From: Nitrospiraceae bacterium | GTDB lineage: Bacteria > Nitrospirota > Thermodesulfovibrionia > UBA6902 | DNA: 36,740 bases | Reading direction: 5' to 3' | NCBI GenBank assembly: GCA_003599505.1 | Contig: QZKO01000020.1 | Span: 1-36,740 of the forward strand | Shown here: positions 12,644 through 25,038 of the stretch, piece by piece | Position numbering within the stretch: position 1 is the stretch's first letter | Layout of the letters: each line of letters opens with the position of its first letter | Made by a program: the position numbers and the translations under genes | Notes under the pieces: generated by a model | What the model was told of the DNA's origin: nothing | Databases searched by the model: none | What the model saw: the letters and a program-made list of their open reading frames with translations, nothing else

Positions 12644-14497
12644 ATGAATGAAATAAGCTGCAGGGTCGTAAAAACCTTTCTCGATTATGTAAGAAACACC
12701 AGGCCGGAATTCCTGCCGGCCCTCCTTTCCGGCATCCCCTTTGACGAACATTATCTTACCGATCCGGACAACTGGATCCCCTGGGACGTTGAACGTCTTC
12801 TGGAAGAAAGACTGGCCCATCTCTATGAAGACGACATGATCATGTTCAAGATCGGAAAAAGTATACTTACGTATAAATCCGTCGGTATAGTAAACATACT
12901 CTTCAACCTCTTTATAACCCCGGAGCGGCTTATCCGGTATACCCCGAGGATAGCGCAGTATTTCACCAAAGACGTGGTCATGATCAACGTCGTCGAAACG
13001 ACCCGTGAGAGCGCCGTTGTTGAATTGAAGATACAGGGGAAGCAGACAAGAGGCGCATGCCTGTACAATCAGGGGTTGTACAGCATATTCACGGAGCTTT
13101 TCGGCCTGGAGCCCGCGGAGGTCTCGGAAGTACAGTGTGTTGTGCGCCCGGATGAAATCGGCAGGCATAACGGCATGTACTACCGCGTAGATGAAAACAG
13201 AAACGTTTTTGAATCAGGTCAGCCCGGAAAGGAGGGCAGGATTGTCGGTGTCGTCGCCGAGAATGTCTCCTTCCGGATTAACGGAGTTACTTTCGGAGCG
13301 GAGAGCTGCGTATACAGGTTAAGATGGGAAAACAGGATAATCCGGCTTGCCGGAAGGACCGCGGGGAAAAAGCAGGCGTTGAATGAAGCCCTGCAGCACC
13401 TCGATGAAAACCACAGGAAGCTTCAGGCGGCATACGAGCGTCTCTGGAAATCGGAGGCAAGGTACCGTGATCTGATGGAAAACGCGAGCGACATTATCTG
13501 TTTTGTCGACTCGGCAGGCATCATCACATCGCTTAACAGAAAAGGGCTTGATCTCTCCGGATATACAACTGATGAAGTCGTCGGACAACATTTTCTTTCT
13601 TTTGTAGACGATAAATACAAGAGGGGCGCGTTCCTGAGGTTCAGAAGGGCCTTTCGTCCTCTGTCGGGGCCCTTTGAACTGGTCATCAGGACAAAGAGCT
13701 CCGGCCTGCTGATCCTCTCTGCAAATTCCAACCCTGTGCAGGAGGGAAAAGACGCTGTAGGCCTGATGATTATAGCGAGGGACATAACAGAGGAGAGGGA
13801 AATCGGCGCGCGCCTGATAGAGGCTGAGAGATTCGCGGCAAAGGGCATGGTTGTCGCCGAGATAGCCCACGAGATAAACAATTCTCTCGCCAATATCGAG
13901 ACCGCCCTGTTTATTGTTAATAATCTGAAAACAGACATCAGATACAAGCAGGACATTTTCAAGGATATGCACGAGGAGATCGAGAGGATGTCGGGTATTG
14001 TAAAGGGCATCCTCGAGGTGTACCGTTCCGATAACGCGGCCCTGCAGTCCGTAGACCTCAATACTGAAATACGGAAGGTGATCAATATGACCAAACGGAG
14101 ACTTGATGGAAAAGTCATCTCCATAGTCTCGAGCCTCTCCCCTGACATCCAGTCTGTCCCCTGCAATCCAGGGCATATAAAACAGATACTCCTGAACCTT
14201 ATCAGGAACGCGGAGGAGGCAGTTGCGCCGGCCTCCGGGAAACAGATCATTATAAGCACTTCCCAGGATAACGGCTTTGTCAGCCTGAGAGTAAAGGATA
14301 CAGGCTGCGGGATCCCCGGGCCTATGCTTGAAAAGGTATTTTCTCCCCTTTACACGTCCAAGACCGAAGGCTGCGGGTTCGGATTGTCCGTATGCAAACA
14401 GATAGCCAGAAAATACAACGGCAATATTACGATTGAAAGCGAGGTGGACAGGGGAACAACCGTAACCGTATCGTTTCCTGTAAAAAATTATGCCTGA
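12644..14497 (+). CDS. Sensor histidine kinase with novel N-terminal sensory domain and PAS domain
   Basis: 617 residues. Residues 1-230 form an N-terminal domain I cannot name with confidence; its layout (LFNLFITPERLIRYTPRIAQYFTKD and a later strand-rich segment) faintly recalls V4R/haem-NO-binding-like sensor domains. A short coiled coil (about 245-275) leads to a PAS domain (about 275-390). The kinase core has H409 in EIAHEINN, N-box LLNLIRNAEEAV, and G-boxes DTGCGIPGP and GCGFGLSVCK. No membrane segment is visible, so it is likely cytosolic. Its end overlaps the next gene, a LuxR-type response regulator, by eight bases, so they form a cognate pair. No clear ribosome site precedes ATG 12644. 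Confidence 0.9.
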   Translation: MNEISCRVVKTFLDYVRNTRPEFLPALLSGIPFDEHYLTDPDNWIPWDVERLLEERLAHLYEDDMIMFKIGKSILTYKSVGIVNILFNLFITPERLIRYTPRIAQYFTKDVVMINVVETTRESAVVELKIQGKQTRGACLYNQGLYSIFTELFGLEPAEVSEVQCVVRPDEIGRHNGMYYRVDENRNVFESGQPGKEGRIVGVVAENVSFRINGVTFGAESCVYRLRWENRIIRLAGRTAGKKQALNEALQHLDENHRKLQAAYERLWKSEARYRDLMENASDIICFVDSAGIITSLNRKGLDLSGYTTDEVVGQHFLSFVDDKYKRGAFLRFRRAFRPLSGPFELVIRTKSSGLLILSANSNPVQEGKDAVGLMIIARDITEEREIGARLIEAERFAAKGMVVAEIAHEINNSLANIETALFIVNNLKTDIRYKQDIFKDMHEEIERMSGIVKGILEVYRSDNAALQSVDLNTEIRKVINMTKRRLDGKVISIVSSLSPDIQSVPCNPGHIKQILLNLIRNAEEAVAPASGKQIIISTSQDNGFVSLRVKDTGCGIPGPMLEKVFSPLYTSKTEGCGFGLSVCKQIARKYNGNITIESEVDRGTTVTVSFPVKNYA

Positions 14498-15083
14498 CAT
14501 ACTGATTGCTGAAGACGAAGATGTGCTGAGGAGAAATCTGACATTCATCATGAACAGCTCCGGTTATGCCGCCGTATCCGCGAGGACGAGCGCCGACGCG
14601 ATAGAGCTTTTGAAGAAGAAACATTTCGACGTGGTAATCACCGACCTTGTCATGCCTGTCATGGGCGGGGGAGAACTTATAAAATATGTCTTTGAAAATT
14701 GTCCCGATATCGCGGTCATAATTATTACAGCCTATCCGAGCACGGACAGCGCGATCAACGCCGTCAAAAAGGGTGTGTTTGATTACTTTACCAAGCCGTT
14801 CAGGACAGAAGATATCCTGAACGCGGTCCGGAGGGCAATAGAACAGAAAAAGGAAGTGCCGTTTACCTGGGAAAAACTGAAACGCTTCGAGATCACGAAA
14901 AGGGAAGAGGGCCTGCTCAGGCTTCTTGTCGAAGAAGGCGTTTCTGAAAACAAGGAAATCGCGGACAGGCTCGGGATAAAAGTCACGACCGTCAAGCATC
15001 ATCTTGAAAACCTTTACAATAAATTCACCGCCAAAAACCGCGCCTCGCTGATCTCGGCCGTCATCAAAGCGCTGAGGCAATAA
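14490..15083 (+). CDS. Response regulator, receiver plus LuxR/GerE-type HTH
   Basis: 197 residues. The receiver domain spans about 1-118 with acidic pocket E8-D9-E10, phosphoacceptor D52 (VVITDLVMP) and the KPF lysine. The C-terminal part (about 130-195) is a LuxR-family helix-turn-helix: ITKREEGLLRLLVEEGVSENKEIADRLGIKVTTVKHHLENLYNKF. It should act as a DNA-binding transcriptional regulator phosphorylated by the upstream kinase, whose gene it overlaps. The ligase/acyltransferase pair immediately downstream on the same strand is a natural candidate target. Confidence 0.94.
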   Translation: MPDILIAEDEDVLRRNLTFIMNSSGYAAVSARTSADAIELLKKKHFDVVITDLVMPVMGGGELIKYVFENCPDIAVIIITAYPSTDSAINAVKKGVFDYFTKPFRTEDILNAVRRAIEQKKEVPFTWEKLKRFEITKREEGLLRLLVEEGVSENKEIADRLGIKVTTVKHHLENLYNKFTAKNRASLISAVIKALRQ

Positions 15084-15202
15084 CCCCATACCCTCCTTTT
15101 GGAGGATGCTTTTCCCGGGAAATTTCAGCCTCCTCCTGCCTTTGGAGGTTATAAATCCATCCTTTGTTTTGTTAATCTGAATCTTAAGAAGGGAAAACTT
15201 TT

Positions 15203-16513
15203 ATGAAACCAGCGGACATTAAAAAAATTATCAGGAACTGGCCGGCCTACAGAAAGTTTGTCGAGAACAAGGGGATCGACCCGAAAACGGTCAACGACCT
15301 GAGCGAGCTCCCCGTTGTCGACAAGCAGTTCATTGCTTCCGCGATCCATATGATCCCGTTATTCAGGGTGCGGAACATTATCCCGAGCTCCGGTTCAACC
15401 GGCGACGATTTCTCTTTCGGGCTGTTCGGCGATACCGACCTGAAAAAGGCCTCATACACCGTCGATGCGATTCTCAAAAACCGCTTTCATTCGGCATACA
15501 AAAAGACTCTGCTTATCAACATGCTCCCCGGCGCGATATCGCTTCAGTCCTCAACCGCGAGCGTTGCCTCAATCGGGGTAAGGGCCGATACCGCGGTCTC
15601 CGTCATTAAATCCCTGGGGAGCTGTTTTGACCAGTTGATACTGGTCGGAGAGCCCCTTTTTATGAAAAAAGTTATTGAGCTCGGGGTAAAAGAATCAATA
15701 CTCTGGAAACATATACCGTTGTATATCATAATCGGCGGGGAGTGGACCTCATTAGGCTACGGGAATTACCTTGAGGGCATAGCGGGGCCCCAGCGCGTAT
15801 TTTCATTTATGGGCATGGCTGAGCTGGGGCTTTGCTATTTCTACGAGACCGACGCGACTATCTCCCTGAGAAAAATAGTGTCCGGGGACCGTTTGCTCAG
15901 GCAGACGCTCTTCGGTGAAGCGGATTTCTGTCCGATGCTGTTTGAGTACGATGAAAACGAAATATGCGTCGAATCACTGAGCGACCCGCCCGGACCTTTT
16001 GATTCCCTGATATTGACAACAGCAGACCCTAAAAGGGCGCTTCCGCTTATCCGCTACAGGGGCGGCGATAAGGGTAAAATCCTTTCAAAAGATGAAATCA
16101 ACCGCGCACTTGAAGCAATGGGCTATGCCCGGATTTTCGATCCCTGCGGGTCACAAATCCTTGCCCATTTCGGGAGGGGAAAAGGCATATCGAACGTATA
16201 TCCCGAAAAGGTAAAAGAGATTATTTTCAGCAGAGAGGAAATCGCGTCCACAACAACGGGCAATTTCAGGCTGTGCAGGGAAGAAGACACTTTATATCTG
16301 AAGGTCCAGCTTAAAGAAGACATATACCCGGCTTTCAGCCTTAGGAAAATGTACGAACAGGCGTTTGCCGGATTGCCGGTGCAGGTAACACCTTATCTCT
16401 TTGAAGAATTTCCACACCTCCTGGATTTTGAAAGGAAGATACGGTATGTCTGTGAAGATAATAATGGCGAGGGAAGAAGCAGAGAAAAGATCGGCGTACC
16501 GCTTGCGGTTTAA
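15203..16513 (+). CDS. Adenylate-forming ligase, PaaK/LuxE-like superfamily
   Basis: 436 residues. The phosphate-binding loop SSGSTGDDFSFG (near residue 63) and an RYRGGDKGKIL-type C-terminal hinge are typical of AMP-forming acid ligases related to phenylacetate-CoA ligase, coenzyme F390 synthetase and LuxE acyl-protein synthetase. Homology is distant, so the acid and the acceptor (CoA, protein or other) are unknown. An AAGAAGGG ribosome site precedes ATG 15203. Its 3' end overlaps the acyltransferase gene by 68 bases, which implies tight translational coupling: the ligase may activate the acyl or aryl group that the next enzyme transfers. It lies directly behind a kinase/LuxR-type regulator pair. 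Confidence 0.8.
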   Translation: MKPADIKKIIRNWPAYRKFVENKGIDPKTVNDLSELPVVDKQFIASAIHMIPLFRVRNIIPSSGSTGDDFSFGLFGDTDLKKASYTVDAILKNRFHSAYKKTLLINMLPGAISLQSSTASVASIGVRADTAVSVIKSLGSCFDQLILVGEPLFMKKVIELGVKESILWKHIPLYIIIGGEWTSLGYGNYLEGIAGPQRVFSFMGMAELGLCYFYETDATISLRKIVSGDRLLRQTLFGEADFCPMLFEYDENEICVESLSDPPGPFDSLILTTADPKRALPLIRYRGGDKGKILSKDEINRALEAMGYARIFDPCGSQILAHFGRGKGISNVYPEKVKEIIFSREEIASTTTGNFRLCREEDTLYLKVQLKEDIYPAFSLRKMYEQAFAGLPVQVTPYLFEEFPHLLDFERKIRYVCEDNNGEGRSREKIGVPLAV

Positions 16514-17081
16514 AGTGATGTGCCGGGACCTCGGATGGCTTCCTTCACAAGACTACCCCTCAGGGGAAGAGCGGGATGAATATGACGCAAAACAGAGCAT
16601 TGCATTTCTGGCCCTTGATTTCCTCGGCAATTGCGCCGGCGCATCACGTCTTATCCTCCCCGGCGAGATAGCCCTTCCGATAGAGAGCCACTTCAGGATT
16701 CTGCAAAAAACTTTACTGGAGGCAAGCTATGGAACACTGGATTACTGCGTGGAAGTCTCACGGTTCATAGTGCCGGACCATCCCTTTCTGAAAAATCACG
16801 AGATAACGTTAAAACTCTGCAGGGCCATGATCATGACAAGCATAAAAATGGGAGTAACACACATGCTCATGTCGATCGATTACAGGTTCTTCCGGCTCCT
16901 GAAGATCCTCGGCTTCTCACTTTCAGAGATCGGCGAGCCGAAATTTTACATGGGCTCCAGAACAATACCCGGGATACTGCCCCTTATAAACCTTTTGCCG
17001 GACATCAGAAAAAGCAGACCGTCCTTATACGAATATCTTACCGCGGACAAAGAAGCATTTGAAGAAGCGGTAGCGGTGTAA
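16446..17081 (+). CDS. LuxI/FeeM-like acyltransferase (autoinducer-synthase fold)
   Basis: 211 residues from ATG 16446 (AGGAAG upstream); the frame is open further back inside the ligase gene. The N-terminal half YRLRFKVMCRDLGW, then DEYDAKQSIAFLAL and GASRLILP, followed by VEVSRFIVP, follows the order of conserved blocks in LuxI acyl-homoserine-lactone synthases and in FeeM-type N-acyl amino acid synthases (GNAT-like fold). It probably transfers an acyl chain to an amine. Length matches LuxI (about 200). The donor may come from the overlapping ligase. Alternative: an unrelated GNAT acetyltransferase with convergent motifs; I think this is less likely. Confidence 0.72.
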   Translation: MSVKIIMAREEAEKRSAYRLRFKVMCRDLGWLPSQDYPSGEERDEYDAKQSIAFLALDFLGNCAGASRLILPGEIALPIESHFRILQKTLLEASYGTLDYCVEVSRFIVPDHPFLKNHEITLKLCRAMIMTSIKMGVTHMLMSIDYRFFRLLKILGFSLSEIGEPKFYMGSRTIPGILPLINLLPDIRKSRPSLYEYLTADKEAFEEAVAV

Positions 17082-17136: not shown

Positions 17137-18840
17137 ATGAACGACTCAGAAAAAACATTGCTTAAGGTGACCCGGGCCCTCAGGATACACAGTGAGTTCA
17201 ATAAGTCGCTTATTCGCGCGGCTGATGAAAATGGGTTCATAAATGATGTATGCCGGATAATCGTAGAATCCGGCGGGTATCGTATGGCGTGGGTCGGATT
17301 CGCCGGAACGGGGGATGAAAAACACGTGGTCCGCCCCGTTGCGCAAAAGGATTTCAGGAGAGACTATCCTGAGAATGCCGGGACAGTCCCGGATAAAACA
17401 AACCATATGGCAGGGCCTTTGGGGACAGCGGTCCTGACCGGCAAACCGGATATTGCAAGAGACATTCTTGCTGATCCGGCTTTCACCGCGTGGCGTGATG
17501 ACGCTGTCCGGAAAGGGTACGCATCATCAATTGCGCTTCCGCTTCAGGATGAAGAGCGCGTATTCGGGACGCTGAATATTTATTCTCCCGAGCCGGACGC
17601 CTTTGACCAGAAAGAGGTGGATTTGCTGACGGACCTGGCAAAGAACCTGTCCTACGGTATTATGTCGCTCAGGGAAAAAGACAAGCTGAAGCAGCTTGAG
17701 CGTCAGCTTTTACAGGCGCAAAAGATGGAGGCGGTAGGACAGCTCGCCGGCGGGGTCGCGCACGACTTCAACAATATCCTTTCGGCAATTATCAGCTATT
17801 CCTTTCTGTTAAGGAACAGACTGAAAGAAGAAGACGCGTCAAAGGACACCATAGACAAGATCCTTTTCCTTGCCGACAGGGCTTCACGGATAACAAAGGG
17901 GCTTCTTGACTTCGGCAGGAAGCAGAATTTCGAATTCCTTCCTGTAAAACTGAACGATATCATCAGGAACCTGGAAAAACTGCTTGTAAGATTCGCGGGT
18001 GAAGACGTCGAGTTCCGTACCGGGCTTTCAGACAGGGACCCCGGAATAATCGCCGATACAACCCGGATAGAGCAGGTAATTATAAACCTTGTCACCAACG
18101 CGCGCGACTCAATGCCTGACGGCGGCATATTGACAGTGGAAACGGACATTGCGGAGATAGATGATAATTTCAGGAAGTCACGGGGTTTCGGAGAGGCCGG
18201 GATATACGCCATGCTCTCAGTCCGGGACACGGGCGCCGGTATGGACGAGGAGACAAGGCGCAGGATTTTCGATCCTTTCTTTACGACAAAGGGGCCCGAC
18301 AAAGGAACAGGGCTCGGCCTGTCCGTAACTTACAGCATCGTGAAACAGCATAACGGCTATATTACCGTGGACAGCGAACCCGGCAAAGGAGCGACGTTCA
18401 GAATATATTTCCCCGCCATCCGGATGTCATCGTCGATGGGAAAAAGCAGTAACATTCCTGATATCATGGGGAAATCGGAGACGATACTTCTTGCCGAGGA
18501 CGAAAAAGACGTGAGAAATTCCATGAAAAGAATTCTTGAAGAGTTCGGCTATAAAGTCATAGAAGCTGAAGACGGCAAAGACGCGATAGAGAAATTCTTC
18601 GTGTCGAAAGATGAAGTGCGGCTTCTTGTCATCGACGCTGTAATGCCGGGGAAAAAAGGCAGGGAGGTCTTTGAAGAGGTAAAAAAAATGAAACCCGGCA
18701 TCAGGGCCATAATCACAAGCGGGTATTCGGAAGAATTTTTGCAGAGAAAAAATATCCTTGACGGCCCGGTTACTTTTCTCTCAAAACCCATTTTGCCGCA
18801 TAATTTCCTGGCAAAAATAAGGGCGGAGCTGGAGAAGTGA
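17137..18840 (+). CDS. Hybrid sensor histidine kinase: GAF, HisKA/HATPase, C-terminal receiver
   Basis: 567 residues. A GAF domain covers about 20-175 (VCRIIVESGGYRMAWVGFA ... SSIALPLQDEERVFGTLNIYS). The kinase core has H209 in GGVAHDFNN, N-box VIINLVTNARDSM, and G-boxes DTGAGMDEE and GTGLGLSVTY. A receiver domain (about 445-565) carries E-D-E and phosphoacceptor D500 (LVIDAVMP). No membrane segment is seen. The intramolecular receiver points to a phosphorelay or autoregulation; the output protein is not in the window unless it is the LuxR-type regulator at 14.5 kb. It closes the signalling block and is followed by the promoter of rplU. Confidence 0.93.
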   Translation: MNDSEKTLLKVTRALRIHSEFNKSLIRAADENGFINDVCRIIVESGGYRMAWVGFAGTGDEKHVVRPVAQKDFRRDYPENAGTVPDKTNHMAGPLGTAVLTGKPDIARDILADPAFTAWRDDAVRKGYASSIALPLQDEERVFGTLNIYSPEPDAFDQKEVDLLTDLAKNLSYGIMSLREKDKLKQLERQLLQAQKMEAVGQLAGGVAHDFNNILSAIISYSFLLRNRLKEEDASKDTIDKILFLADRASRITKGLLDFGRKQNFEFLPVKLNDIIRNLEKLLVRFAGEDVEFRTGLSDRDPGIIADTTRIEQVIINLVTNARDSMPDGGILTVETDIAEIDDNFRKSRGFGEAGIYAMLSVRDTGAGMDEETRRRIFDPFFTTKGPDKGTGLGLSVTYSIVKQHNGYITVDSEPGKGATFRIYFPAIRMSSSMGKSSNIPDIMGKSETILLAEDEKDVRNSMKRILEEFGYKVIEAEDGKDAIEKFFVSKDEVRLLVIDAVMPGKKGREVFEEVKKMKPGIRAIITSGYSEEFLQRKNILDGPVTFLSKPILPHNFLAKIRAELEK

Positions 18841-20778: not shown

Positions 20779-23700
20779 ATGCCTCGTAAAATAGAACAGC
20801 GTAAGCCATCTAAGAACTTCTGGATAACTACGGGCATTTTTTCAAGCCATTATCTCCTTGAACGCCTCCCTCAGGCAGGGCCAATATTATGGCCTCCTGA
20901 TGAAGAAGTATCTCCAATATTAAAGGCAATTCAGGAGTTATACAAGGCTAATATTGTCGGCTTGAGAAAAGGCAATGAAGCAAATACCGAAAGGCGATTC
21001 ATTGATAAGGTATTTAAAGAATTAGGTTTTGGTTTTCTTAATCAGAATCAAATCCCTGAAGCAGAGCGCAGGCAGGTTCCCGATTATTTCCTCTATTCTT
21101 CTTACAAAGACGCTGATAAAGCGTTTGAACTGTCTTCATATAAGAAATACAGGTCAGCACTTTCAATAGCCGAGGCAAAACGATGGGACCACAATTTGGA
21201 TAAACCTTCTTCAGGAGCAGGCAAGGCTCCAAGAGGCAGGTATCCACATCAACAGATAAGGGATTATCTGAATGAATCAGAACACATTAAATGGGGAGTT
21301 CTTACCAATGGCAAGGAATGGAGGCTTTATTTCAGAGAAGGACGTTCAAGTAAGTTTTTTGAGATAGACCTTGAAGGGTGTCTTCAGGATATTCACAGGT
21401 TTAAATATTTTTATGTTCTTTTCAGACCAGTCGCTTTTATAAAAGACAGTTCCGGCAGATGTTTACTTGATAATATTTTTGACGAATCCCTGAGATTTCA
21501 GGAAGACATTGAAAAAGACCTCAGGGAGAAAGTATTTAAATGTGTTGAATGGCTCGGCCATGGATACCTTTCCGGAGAAAAAAATCATCTTTCAGAAAAA
21601 GACATCGACCCCATATACCATAATAGCCTTATTCTCCTATACAGGATACTTTTTGTGCTCAATGCAGAAGCGAGGGACTTGCTCTCTACCAATCCTTTGA
21701 CGAAATATTACAAACATTACGGGATTCAGCGAATAAAAGACAGGGTAAGACAGGAGAAAGGCGAGTTTATCAGCGCCAAGACCGTCTTGTACGATGATCT
21801 CTTAGCTCTATTTCATCTGATTAACGGCAGCAATGAAAAACTCAATAAAGATATGAATATCCCTCGATATAATGGCGGGCTTTTTGATCCTGAGAGATAT
21901 ACGTTTCTTGAGGAAAAGAAAGTAGGAGATGATGTTCTTTCAGAAATAATCTATGAACTTTCTTATCGAGCTGATAACGGAGATTTACACAGCATTGACT
22001 ATAAAGGACTCGGCGAAAGGCACCTTGGAACTATTTATGAAGGATTGCTGGAGCATAAGTTTAGTTTGGTTGACGGTAAAATTACCCTTAAAAATGATAA
22101 AGGTGAGCGGAAAGCCACAGGGGCATACTACACTCCTGACTACATCGTTAAATATATCGTTGAAAACACCTTAGCGCCTATCCTCAAAGTAATAGATGAA
22201 AGAATCAAAAAAGAACATACGGGCAATAAAGATGACTCTTTTGCACGAGAGGTGCTTAAACTCAATATCTGTGACCCCGCGATGGGTTCAGGGCATTTCC
22301 TTGTTGAAGCTGTGCAGTTCCTTGCTGATGAGATTGCATATCATCCCACCACAGAGCTTAAAACGCCGCAAAGCATAACAGAAGATGAAATTAACTACTG
22401 GAAACGCAAGGTAGTGGAGTCCTGTATCTACGGTGTTGATATAAAAGAGCTTGCCGTTGAACTTGCCAAACTCTCGCTCTGGCTTAAAACAGTGGATAAA
22501 AGCCAGCCGCTTAATTTTCTTGATCATCACCTCAGGTGCGGCAACTCTATTATTGGCGCAAGAATTAATGATCTAAATTACCTGCCTTCATCAAAAAGGA
22601 AAATAGAAAAAACCGAGAGACAAGACGAACAAGCTCTGCTTTTTGATAAGTCACAATTCAAGACTGACATCACAGAGGTAATCAAAGGTTTTCATGCAAT
22701 AGAAGAAATGCCGAGCGAGAAAATCTCAGATATTAAGGCAAAGGAAAAGACTTTCCAGAAATTAATGGAAGAGCTTGTCAGATACAAAGAGATTGCCGAC
22801 TTATGGACAAGTTTATTTTTTGGGAATAATCTTGAAGAAAAAGAGCGGGTATATGAGGAACTTTTACAAGACCAATATAAATACCAGAAGGATTTGTTCG
22901 GATCGGAGGCAGTCATTGTTGAGAAGAAGAAATCAAAAGCCGGCTTATCAAACCGGATATATAATTTCATTGTTAATTTACTGCAACGCCCTGACGGAAA
23001 GACGCAGATGCCGAAACTCGGTTCTTTGCTTGAGAACTCTGAAGCTATCGCAAGGGAGAAAAGATTTTTCCACTGGGAACTATCCTTCCCAGAGGTGTTT
23101 TTTAATGAAAATGGAAGTCCCAAAGAAACTCCCGGATTTGATTGCGTAATCGGTAACCCACCGTATGATGTTATATCAGAGATTGAACAGGAAAAAGACG
23201 TACAGCCTGAGAAAGAATATTTTTCACAGCAACACATGTATGTCCCCGCGATCGGAAGCAAGCTTAATCTTTACCGCCTTTTTAGCGTTATATCGTTGCA
23301 GTTACTTAAGGACAAAGGGATGCACGGTTTTATTGTCCCAATGGCTCTGTTGGCTGACAAACAGGCAAAGCCGTTGAGAGAATTTATTCTTAAAAAGAAT
23401 AGGTTGCAGAAAATAGAAGCGTTCCCTCAAAAAGATGATCCGGCAAACAGGGTTTTCCCTGACGCAAAGCTTTCTACATGCATATATATTCTTTGCAAGC
23501 AGAAGCCGTCTTTTTTTGATGTCAGAATTCATCCGGGAAAAGATATTTTGGAAACTTCAACTTTTTTGGCTATAAAGCCATCTCAGATTGAAGAGTTTGA
23601 TAAAGATAATCTGAGCATTCCGAGTTATCCGAATATGACCACAAAAGATTTTAATCTTGCTCTGAAATTAAACATATTTTCTAACGGGATTACACTCAAG

Positions 23701-24253
23701 CATTTTGCTCCATCACAGCAGGGAGAAGTTAATCTATCAGCACACTCCGGGTATTTGACAGATGAAAATAGAGGACAGGTCATTTTAAGAGGCGCTCATG
23801 TAAATCGATACGAATTTCAGAAAGAACCAAAACAGGGAACACCGATGTATCTTGATATTCAAAAGTATCTTGCTTCTCATGGCAAAAATACGAAGGCTTA
23901 TGATTATAGGTACATCAGAATCGGCTATCAGAGGGGGGCTGCTATAGACAACTGGCGCAGAATCATTGCAACCATTATTGGGAAGGACAGCTTTTGCTCG
24001 GATACAATTAATTATATCGTCAACCCTAAAGAGTATAACCTCTTTGCTATTCTCGCCCTGTTAAATTCATCATTATGGGAGTGGAGATTCCGTCTTACAA
24101 GTACAAATAACCATGTCAACTCTTATGAGATTGACTCCATGCCGATGCCTCCGATATCCTTCACCACCCCTGAAAAGGAGCGGAAGGAGCGGGTTGCGGA
24201 GGCGATTGCGCAGTATGAAGCTTGTATGATAGAGTTAGAGAAAGGAATATCAA
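20779..24253 (+). CDS. Type IIG restriction-modification enzyme, nuclease and methylase part (interrupted gene)
   Basis: The ORF stays open to 25038 (1419 codons), but enzyme-like sequence ends near residue 1155; the rest is Fic, annotated separately. N-terminal PD-(D/E)XK nuclease: D102 (VPDY) and E132-A-K134. Central N6-adenine methyltransferase: motif I D499-PAMGSGHF and motif IV N793-PPY. A target-recognition region follows, with GAHVNRYEF and YRYIRIGYQRG, up to FTTPEKERKERVAEAIAQYE. This matches Eco57I-like single-chain enzymes that methylate and cut DNA. In such proteins the last ~150 residues form a helical tail; here that tail is a separate ORF at 25041. Codon use is AT-richer than in the flanking housekeeping genes, as expected for a transferred gene. 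A TATAAA box lies at 20760-20765; the -35 is unclear. Confidence 0.85.
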
Positions 24254-24466
24254 ATGAGAAAGCGGAAGTCTCAAAAGAACATAGTCGAGCAATGGAGGAC
24301 AAACCTCTCTCCGGAGGAAAAAAGGAAGAAATATCTGGAAAGCATCCCCGCTCAGGTAAGCGCGTCCATGGCGTTCGAAGGCGAGCACGTAAGCCTGAAA
24401 ATGCTGAAAGAATATCTGAAGAGCCTGAGGATTACTCACCAGCCGGACGTTACACGCGTTTCATAG
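24254..24466 (+). CDS. VbhA/FicA-like antitoxin of the Fic module, overlapping in another frame
   Basis: 70 residues, in the +2 frame relative to the long ORF. AAAGGA (24241-24246) gives a ribosome site seven bases before ATG 24254. The sequence is helical and charged, and includes VSASMAFEGEHVS, where S38-M-A-F-E42-G43 fits the [S/T]xxxE[G/N] inhibitory motif whose Glu blocks ATP binding in Fic enzymes. It sits directly before the Fic domain, as class I Fic antitoxins do. In the long frame the same bases give an unconvincing, Arg/Lys/Ser-rich peptide, so this frame is the real coding one here. Its stop (24464-24466) lies inside the Fic region, so the two coding regions overlap. Confidence 0.78.
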   Translation: MRKRKSQKNIVEQWRTNLSPEEKRKKYLESIPAQVSASMAFEGEHVSLKMLKEYLKSLRITHQPDVTRVS

Positions 24467-25038
24467 AATCAAGCCTCGGCATTAAATCCTATTCCGAACT
24501 TGCGCCGTACCTTGCCAAAGGAGTTGAGCGTGTAATGGCTTCTCTCCTTGAGCAACACCCTGAAGAATTAAAGATAACGTCTGAATTTGTTTGTAAACTT
24601 CATAAAGATGCCTTTGAAGAACTTTTTCCCTCATGGGCCGGACGTTACCGCGACAGGGAGGTGGCAGTGGGCATATATAACCCTCCGCCGTATTTTGAAG
24701 TGCCGGTTTTGATGCGCGGTTACTGCGATGACCTGGAATTCCGTCTTTCTTCTCTCGGTCCAAAACCGCAGATAACGAATGGGCTTCTTGAAACCCTTTC
24801 ATTTGCCGAGGGGCGTTTTCTAAGCATACACCCTTTCCTCGATTTCAACGGCAGGGTTACGCGAATGCTTCTTTTTTCACTTCTCTACAGACTTGACCTC
24901 CCGCCTGTGCAGCTTGTCCCTGACGAAAAAGATGAAAAAGGGAAAAGTGAATATCTTGACGCCCTTGCAAAAGCGGATATAATGGACTGGCAGCCGCTAA
25001 TTGATATCTGGAGAAAAAGATTCGGGAGCGTCAAATAA
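24292..25038 (+). CDS. Fic-domain protein (AMPylase-type toxin), in frame with the restriction enzyme
   Basis: Fic-like sequence runs from about 24430 (YTRFIESSLGIKSY) to 25038 and contains HPFLDFNGRVTR (residues 1351-1362 of the long ORF; H1351 catalytic), a recognised variant of HPFxxGNGRxxR with Phe replacing the first Gly. Upstream blocks FPSWAGRYRD and FAEGRFLSIHPF are also family-typical. Fic enzymes transfer AMP from ATP to target proteins. The only in-frame ATG after the enzyme part is 24292, which would give 248 residues with an out-of-character leader of about 45; otherwise Fic is made as a fusion to the restriction enzyme or by frameshift from the antitoxin. The region is GC-richer than the enzyme part, which suggests a separate origin. 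Confidence 0.8.
   Translation: MEDKPLSGGKKEEISGKHPRSGKRVHGVRRRARKPENAERISEEPEDYSPAGRYTRFIESSLGIKSYSELAPYLAKGVERVMASLLEQHPEELKITSEFVCKLHKDAFEELFPSWAGRYRDREVAVGIYNPPPYFEVPVLMRGYCDDLEFRLSSLGPKPQITNGLLETLSFAEGRFLSIHPFLDFNGRVTRMLLFSLLYRLDLPPVQLVPDEKDEKGKSEYLDALAKADIMDWQPLIDIWRKRFGSVK

Follow-up and report, generated by a model that had tools for sequence, protein, structure and literature searches.

The window analysed here, a single contig of 36,740 bases, stems from a Nitrospiraceae bacterium assembly (2.64 Mb, 95% complete) and carries a cassette of four genes on the forward strand, in the order kinase, regulator, ligase, synthase, which we describe as a candidate signalling locus. The first gene encodes a sensor histidine kinase of 617 residues (12644..14497), in which an N-terminal sensor region of about 230 residues (12644-13339), of a divergent V4R/H-NOX-like kind, is followed by a coiled linker and by PAS, HisKA and HATPase domains. 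Its open reading frame (ORF) overlaps by 8 bases that of a response regulator of the FixJ/NarL class (14490..15083), which combines a receiver domain (REC) with a LuxR/GerE-type helix-turn-helix (HTH). Pfam bears out both assignments, which had been proposed in a preliminary description of the locus made from the sequence alone. Missed at that stage was a tandem operator-like site (15089-15178) in the gap after the regulator, consisting of palindrome 1 (TACCCTCCTTTTGGAGGATG, 15089..15108), palindrome 2 (CTCCTGCCTTTGGAGGTT, 15133..15150) and a −10-like box, TAATCT (15173..15178), all on the forward strand.

The third gene (15203..16513) encodes a predicted adenylate-forming acid ligase of the PaaK/LuxE/F390-synthetase kind and shares 68 bases with the fourth (16446..17081), which encodes a LuxI-superfamily acyl transferase and candidate signal synthase. 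An ORF check confirmed the previously given coordinates of the ligase and of this overlap. The ATG at 16446 was preferred to a longer reading from a TTG at 16401, since the 68-base overlap recurs in seven of nine cassettes; the remaining two overlap by 71 and 23 bases. To judge by names read off the translations, prfA/prmC flank the region on one side and rplU/obg on the other.

The synthase belongs to the autoinducer-synthase superfamily. It scores 46.7 bits against Pfam Autoind_synth (PF00765; cut-off 24) and 108 bits against TIGR03694 (exosort_acyl), under the cut-off of 111.95, and shows no match to the FeeM profile PF21926 up to E 1. When its AlphaFold2 model (pLDDT 90.5) was compared with the PDB by Foldseek, BjaI came first (E 4.8e-10), and TofI, FeeM, MesI, RpaI and LasI were also found. 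The top 16 matches are all acyl-homoserine lactone (AHL) synthases or FeeM; plain GNAT proteins appear from rank 17 downwards, and an assignment of the synthase to ordinary GNATs, the outcome that would have spoken against the preliminary description, was rejected. The kinship with AHL or N-acyl amino acid synthases claimed there is thus upheld by profile, fold and tree alike, LuxI being matched by both profile and fold and FeeM by fold but not by PF21926, and the conserved blocks on which the claim was built are present in the sequence. Among the PDB matches, BjaI, MesI and RpaI are described as coenzyme A (CoA)-dependent, which agrees with a ligase forming CoA thioesters.

A tree of the cassette synthases with 32 LuxI and 10 exosort-type rows, the former from Nitrospirota, places the cassette proteins in one clade (100/99), separate from LuxI (100/98) and also from the exosortase acyltransferases; several branches are long, and deeper placement is unsure. 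LuxI proteins conserve the set R24, F28, W34, E43, D45, D48, R70, E100 and R103. All nine are conserved in Nitrospirota LuxI and eight are kept in the cassette synthases, the common residues being R21, W31, E42, D44, D47, R68, E103 and R106.

The exosort-like features of the synthase bear on the main rival to a signalling function, an inducible non-signal N-acyl pathway. Here ligase and synthase would form a biosynthetic operon induced by the regulator once the kinase senses the precursor acid or another metabolite, and the product would be an N-acyl amino acid or lipid that becomes part of the membrane or matrix, a role already proposed for exosortase-linked acyltransferases. The TIGR03694 score just under the cut-off and a tree position towards the exosort proteins favour such a pathway. 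Set against it are the separate clade, the fold nearest to BjaI and LasI, the retention of the LuxI residue W31, which exosort proteins lack, and the presence of a true exosort_acyl protein elsewhere in the same genome, so that we regard the pathway as rather unlikely. That true exosort_acyl protein (185.5 bits; L019:10438-11196, in the own genome C7:35434-36162) lies apart from the cassette; after its gene come two-component genes and others that resemble polysaccharide-export genes.

Conservation was analysed in genomes of the class Thermodesulfovibrionia (G denotes a genome, f a family and g98 a genus). A ligase profile search of 230 class genomes gave matches in 12. Kinase, regulator, ligase and synthase follow each other on one strand in eight of them (G000, G001, G005, G035, G064, G188, G219 and G128), contig ends cut the cassette off in G093 and G029, and G020 holds a synthase-less copy. 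These eight complete and three truncated or reduced copies span six families (f1, f8, f9, f15, f17 and f20) and lie in mostly unlike neighbourhoods; therefore, the gene order has been held by selection or joint transfer. The grouping of the four genes exceeds coincidence. The link of the ligase-synthase pair to the kinase and regulator, drawn in the preliminary description from one locus, is constant across the cassettes, and the coupling of ligase and synthase is borne out by the conserved overlap and by the ligase subfamily, which adjoins a synthase of the autoinducer superfamily at every locus except that of G020 (229 class genomes). A contig scan with narrow search patterns detected cassette copies in Nitrospirota only.

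In the twelfth genome, G163, a distant ligase (31% identity) comes directly after a pair of proteins that exceed the Pfam cut-offs for FeeM and Acetyltransf_5, in a set without regulators. A ligase of the same kind beside two FeeM-like proteins counts in favour of a biosynthetic operon. Searching with the G163 ligase returned only the same loci, in 11 of 229 genomes, the truncated G029 copy falling below the threshold used. No ligase-synthase pair without regulators and with a known metabolic role, which would have counted against a signal function, was found at these loci, the lone regulator-free case being G163 with its distant ligase.

The gene 3′ of the synthase varies between copies and may encode a hybrid kinase, an HD-GYP regulator or a PAS kinase. 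In the window it is an accessory GAF-HisKA-HATPase-REC hybrid kinase assigned by Pfam (17137..18840, forward strand), and a 65% identical relative follows the synthase in G001. The hybrid kinase reported earlier is thus present where it was described, but other genes take this place in other copies, and we rejected it as a constant partner; it stands outside the constant core. Directly 3′ of the synthase, two copies carry REC-HD-GYP regulators (L020:11054-12133 and L047:6606-8126), a hint at cyclic di-GMP as downstream output. A Cas9-type gene with RuvC_III, HNH and Cas9_a domains lies near the G128 cassette (L048:248-3403). Further along the window, 20779-25038 encodes a protein of 1419 residues in which a restriction-modification region of the Eco57I/N6-methylase type is joined to a C-terminal Fic domain, an unusual fusion.

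In this class, canonical luxI and a LuxR gene with PF03472 and GerE domains are transcribed towards each other. The PF03472 receptor was detected in none of the 11 cassette genomes and in all five luxI genomes, a comparison for which shared ancestry and the choice of luxI genomes make a simple P value unsafe. Within genus g98, G188 carries the cassette at the locus where the genome of a sister species, G192, has luxI/luxR; the genes in the flanks, among them those for alanine-tRNA-synthetase, ABC1, an XRE-type protein and a hybrid kinase, show 82-95% identity between the two genomes. Apparently, one module was exchanged for the other at this locus. This exchange, together with the absence of LuxR, argues for signalling and against a biosynthetic operon.

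No Pfam match was found for the window ligase. NCBIfam matches are weak and recur across the 12 ligase members (DVU_1553-type, PaaK, FlxY, LuxE and F390 synthetase), the DVU_1553-type match being present in 11 of the 12 with a best value of 1e-13. The PaaK model TIGR02155 failed clearly (30.7 bits, cut-off 646.3), and searches of PDB sequences with the single sequence and with a profile gave only insignificant PaaK matches. The adenylation motifs (SSGSTG loop or SSG..G, RYRxGD, P-L-x-R...D and G-R) are invariant or nearly so in all 12 members, GRGK and a C-terminal ERK are seen in the window protein, and the C-terminal R-K, including the C-terminal lysine, is kept across members. On its motifs, the protein is an adenylate-forming acid ligase of the PaaK/LuxE/F390 superfamily; of the earlier label "PaaK/LuxE-like", the adenylate-forming class stands, whereas a closer PaaK-type affiliation finds weak NCBIfam matches and none in Pfam.

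The regulator is 71-91% identical in five cassettes, and in 10 of 10 copies that reach into the regulator-ligase gap this holds two palindromes with the core CCT-N8-AGG (with small variations). In the window their spacing is 43 bp, or roughly four turns of the helix, and across the family it is ~43 bp; a TAnnCT box is found 23-24 bp 3′ of palindrome 2, again in 10 of 10 copies. Relative to the start predicted from the −10 box, palindrome 2 is centred at about −43.5, where activators of the LuxR or FixJ type usually sit. A covariance model built on the site gives one match per cassette genome, at the cassette (in the own genome E 1.7e-15, the next at 0.9); it was trained on the 10 cassette sites, whose scores are hence no independent test, and only the double site was modelled, so that single sites elsewhere would escape this regulon search. 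Outside the training set, the only strong matches are two in G055 (3.3e-6 and 7.1e-5), followed by a G092 match (1.4e-3) that has no apparent meaning.

G055 shows no ligase match. Its regulator is 72% identical to that of the window and partners a different GAF-PAS kinase. One site lies directly after the regulator, ahead of a receiver gene, and the other on another contig (L167:6285-6382, minus strand, C10), before a possible cysteine-containing ORF of 65 residues, which is a candidate regulon member. Similarly, a kinase-regulator pair in G117, with a 55% identical regulator, is followed by a complete, weaker site (E 0.006 among the loci searched), and no ligase-synthase pair adjoins the sites of either genome. 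The site thus tracks the regulator rather than the ligase, which is good evidence of a regulator binding site. The tandem site is probably the activator operator of the regulator, an activating sign being suggested by its position.

Lying directly after the regulator stop, and with a T-rich stretch after the first of them in some copies, the palindromes could instead be terminators or RNA hairpins, which would leave ligase and synthase outside the control of the regulator. We give this little credence: the core is shared, the spacing of ~43 bp and the distance to TAnnCT are fixed, a full-length site in G055 sits away from the regulator gene, and an Rfam scan of the region returned no match. 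On the core, the spacing and the G055 site, terminators were rejected. It is similarly improbable that the regulator drives a larger, unrelated response, ligase and synthase being only two among its targets, with redox or a metal sensed by the kinase cysteines. Kinase-regulator pairs without ligase, the G055 sites before a receiver gene and a small ORF, and five invariant residues in the sensor would fit such a response; the double site, by contrast, occurs once per cassette genome, at the ligase promoter.

These five residues, C6, C139, E162, C165 and C222, are invariant in all sensors, including a distant copy in G160. Besides 10 cassette genomes, the sensor is found in four further genomes of the class, G075 (truncated at a contig edge), G160, G117 and G120; the G128 kinase has an additional N-terminal Cro/C1 HTH. 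Pfam has no match to the N-terminal ~230 residues of the window kinase, the AraC-type Arabinose_bd domain is hit by two relatives of the sensor (best 7e-5), V4R (PF02830) came up in a single sensor member and at no better than E 0.31, and PDB sequence searches with the sensor gave coiled-coil noise only. By fold, the sensor model, of moderate confidence (pLDDT 75.6), resembles H-NOX domains (E 3.6e-5; TM on the target close to 0.6). Haem binding is unlikely, as neither an invariant histidine nor YxSxR is present across the sensor alignment. The C-to-E spacing of 23 and C-to-C spacing of 26 equal those in V4R proteins of the class, and the fourth residue, C222, comes after a variable insertion. 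In DmpR, the zinc ligands C151 and C177 are likewise 26 apart; its glutamate, residue 172, stands 5 before C177 and that of the sensor 3 before the cysteine, not an exact match (PMC7264223). Three cysteines and one glutamate hold the zinc in the V4R phenol-sensor group (PMC10715001). Model and invariant residues suggest an H-NOX/V4R-like fold with a C-E-C-C site resembling the phenol-sensor zinc site. Since no strongly hydrophobic segment is seen in the hydropathy profile, a cytosolic location of the kinase is probable. Known ligands of V4R-type domains include pathway substrates, phenol among them (PMC7264223, PMC10715001), which suits the biosynthetic operon.

The gene content, its conservation, the superfamily of the synthase, the tandem site and the lack of LuxR are established by computation. 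The explanation that we favour, at somewhat better than an even chance, is a self-contained circuit of autoregulated small-molecule signalling that uses the kinase as receptor, in place of LuxI/LuxR. Its substrates, product and ligand we infer as follows. The ligase would activate a fatty or aromatic carboxylic acid, the probable activated form being a CoA thioester, and the synthase, translationally coupled to it, would move the acyl group onto an amine, either an amino acid or S-adenosylmethionine, the latter yielding a homoserine lactone. In the cytosol, the V4R/H-NOX-like domain would bind this product, by itself or together with the precursor, and the kinase may then alter the phosphorylation of its partner regulator; on the palindromes at 15089-15150, the regulator would turn on the ligase-synthase promoter and close a feedback loop. 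More tentatively, and a little short of even, we propose a distinct class of quorum sensing in Nitrospirota, in which a dedicated ligase and a third LuxI-fold clade would make an acyl- or aryl-amine signal, a V4R-like soluble kinase would read it, a tandem operator would provide the feedback, and the whole could be exchanged for luxI/luxR at one chromosomal locus.

Several observations weigh against the favoured circuit. The LuxI F28 position is methionine in 9 of 9 cassette synthases, and AHL is a doubtful product for this reason. G020 has kinase, regulator, site and ligase with no synthase beside them, a NarL-type regulator gene after the ligase taking its position, and in G117 and G120 the kinase-regulator pair occurs without the ligase. 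When the sensor was set against V4R proteins from the class by hhalign, the result was not significant (P 0.07), though it aligned the Cys/Glu sites, and no evident counterparts of the His/Trp that anchor phenol in DmpR stand at the corresponding sensor positions. Finally, all cassette copies come from one class, and the named carriers are metagenome-assembled genomes.

The preliminary description could not name such a ligase-fed, two-component-linked system. In part it can be placed, as ligase-fed AHL synthesis and synthase-kinase circuits are known; their combination was not found in the papers searched, and the open-access literature yielded no described system that unites a V4R-like kinase with a LuxI-fold synthase and its dedicated ligase. 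Like the proposed circuit, LuxI/LuxR systems autoinduce via an inverted repeat upstream of the synthase. Unlike these, the cassette genomes lack PF03472, so that the receptor role would pass to the two-component pair, the ligase is dedicated and overlapping, and the synthase forms a separate clade with M for F28. Shared with the CoA-dependent branch (BjaI, RpaI, MesI) are a PF00765 synthase, its fold and the majority of the active-site residues; RpaI is among the enzymes known to depend on a CoA ligase, and CoA-ligase-fed AHL synthesis is known from R. palustris and P. hirschii (PMC10470506).

CqsA/CqsS, LqsA/LqsS and LuxM/LuxN of Vibrio and Legionella resemble the cassette in having a dedicated synthase whose signal is read by a cognate histidine kinase. 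Their synthase and kinase genes are linked; the synthases are unrelated to that of the cassette, CqsA being a pyridoxal-phosphate enzyme and LuxM not LuxI-like. These circuits are not known to include a dedicated ligase, and CqsS, LqsS and LuxN are membrane-bound, whereas the cassette kinase is without clear membrane segments. The Rpf cluster for diffusible signal factor (RpfF, RpfC/RpfG, RpfB) likewise brings a ligase and a synthase together with a two-component pair. RpfF belongs to the crotonase type, and it is in the cassette that the ligase precedes and overlaps the synthase. Two reports have the acyl-CoA ligase RpfB act in signal turnover (PMC9040794, PMC10226988).

With the TIGR03694/FeeM N-acyl amino acid synthases, the cassette enzyme shares the superfamily, a near-cut-off TIGR03694 score and FeeM among its best fold matches; it differs in scoring under the cut-off, in lacking a PF21926 match and in its separate clade, and the cassette has a dedicated two-component pair, with no exosortase gene seen beside it. 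The V4R phenol sensors DmpR, MopR and PoxR, together with H-NOX, are alike in fold and in the C-E-C-C residues with a C-to-C spacing of 26 (PMC7264223). They differ in that the cassette sensor sits on a histidine kinase and has an insertion before the last cysteine, that phenol-anchoring residues and a haem-ligand signature are not evident, and that the profile match is not significant.

If the favoured circuit is correct, LuxI-type synthases can do without LuxR and work alongside an acid ligase of their own and a two-component receptor. The little-studied, largely uncultured Nitrospirota would gain a testable signalling circuit whose receptor, operator and enzyme pair are defined and lend themselves to expression in E. 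coli. Quorum sensing would then have to be sought more widely, as such loci escape searches for LuxI/LuxR pairs.

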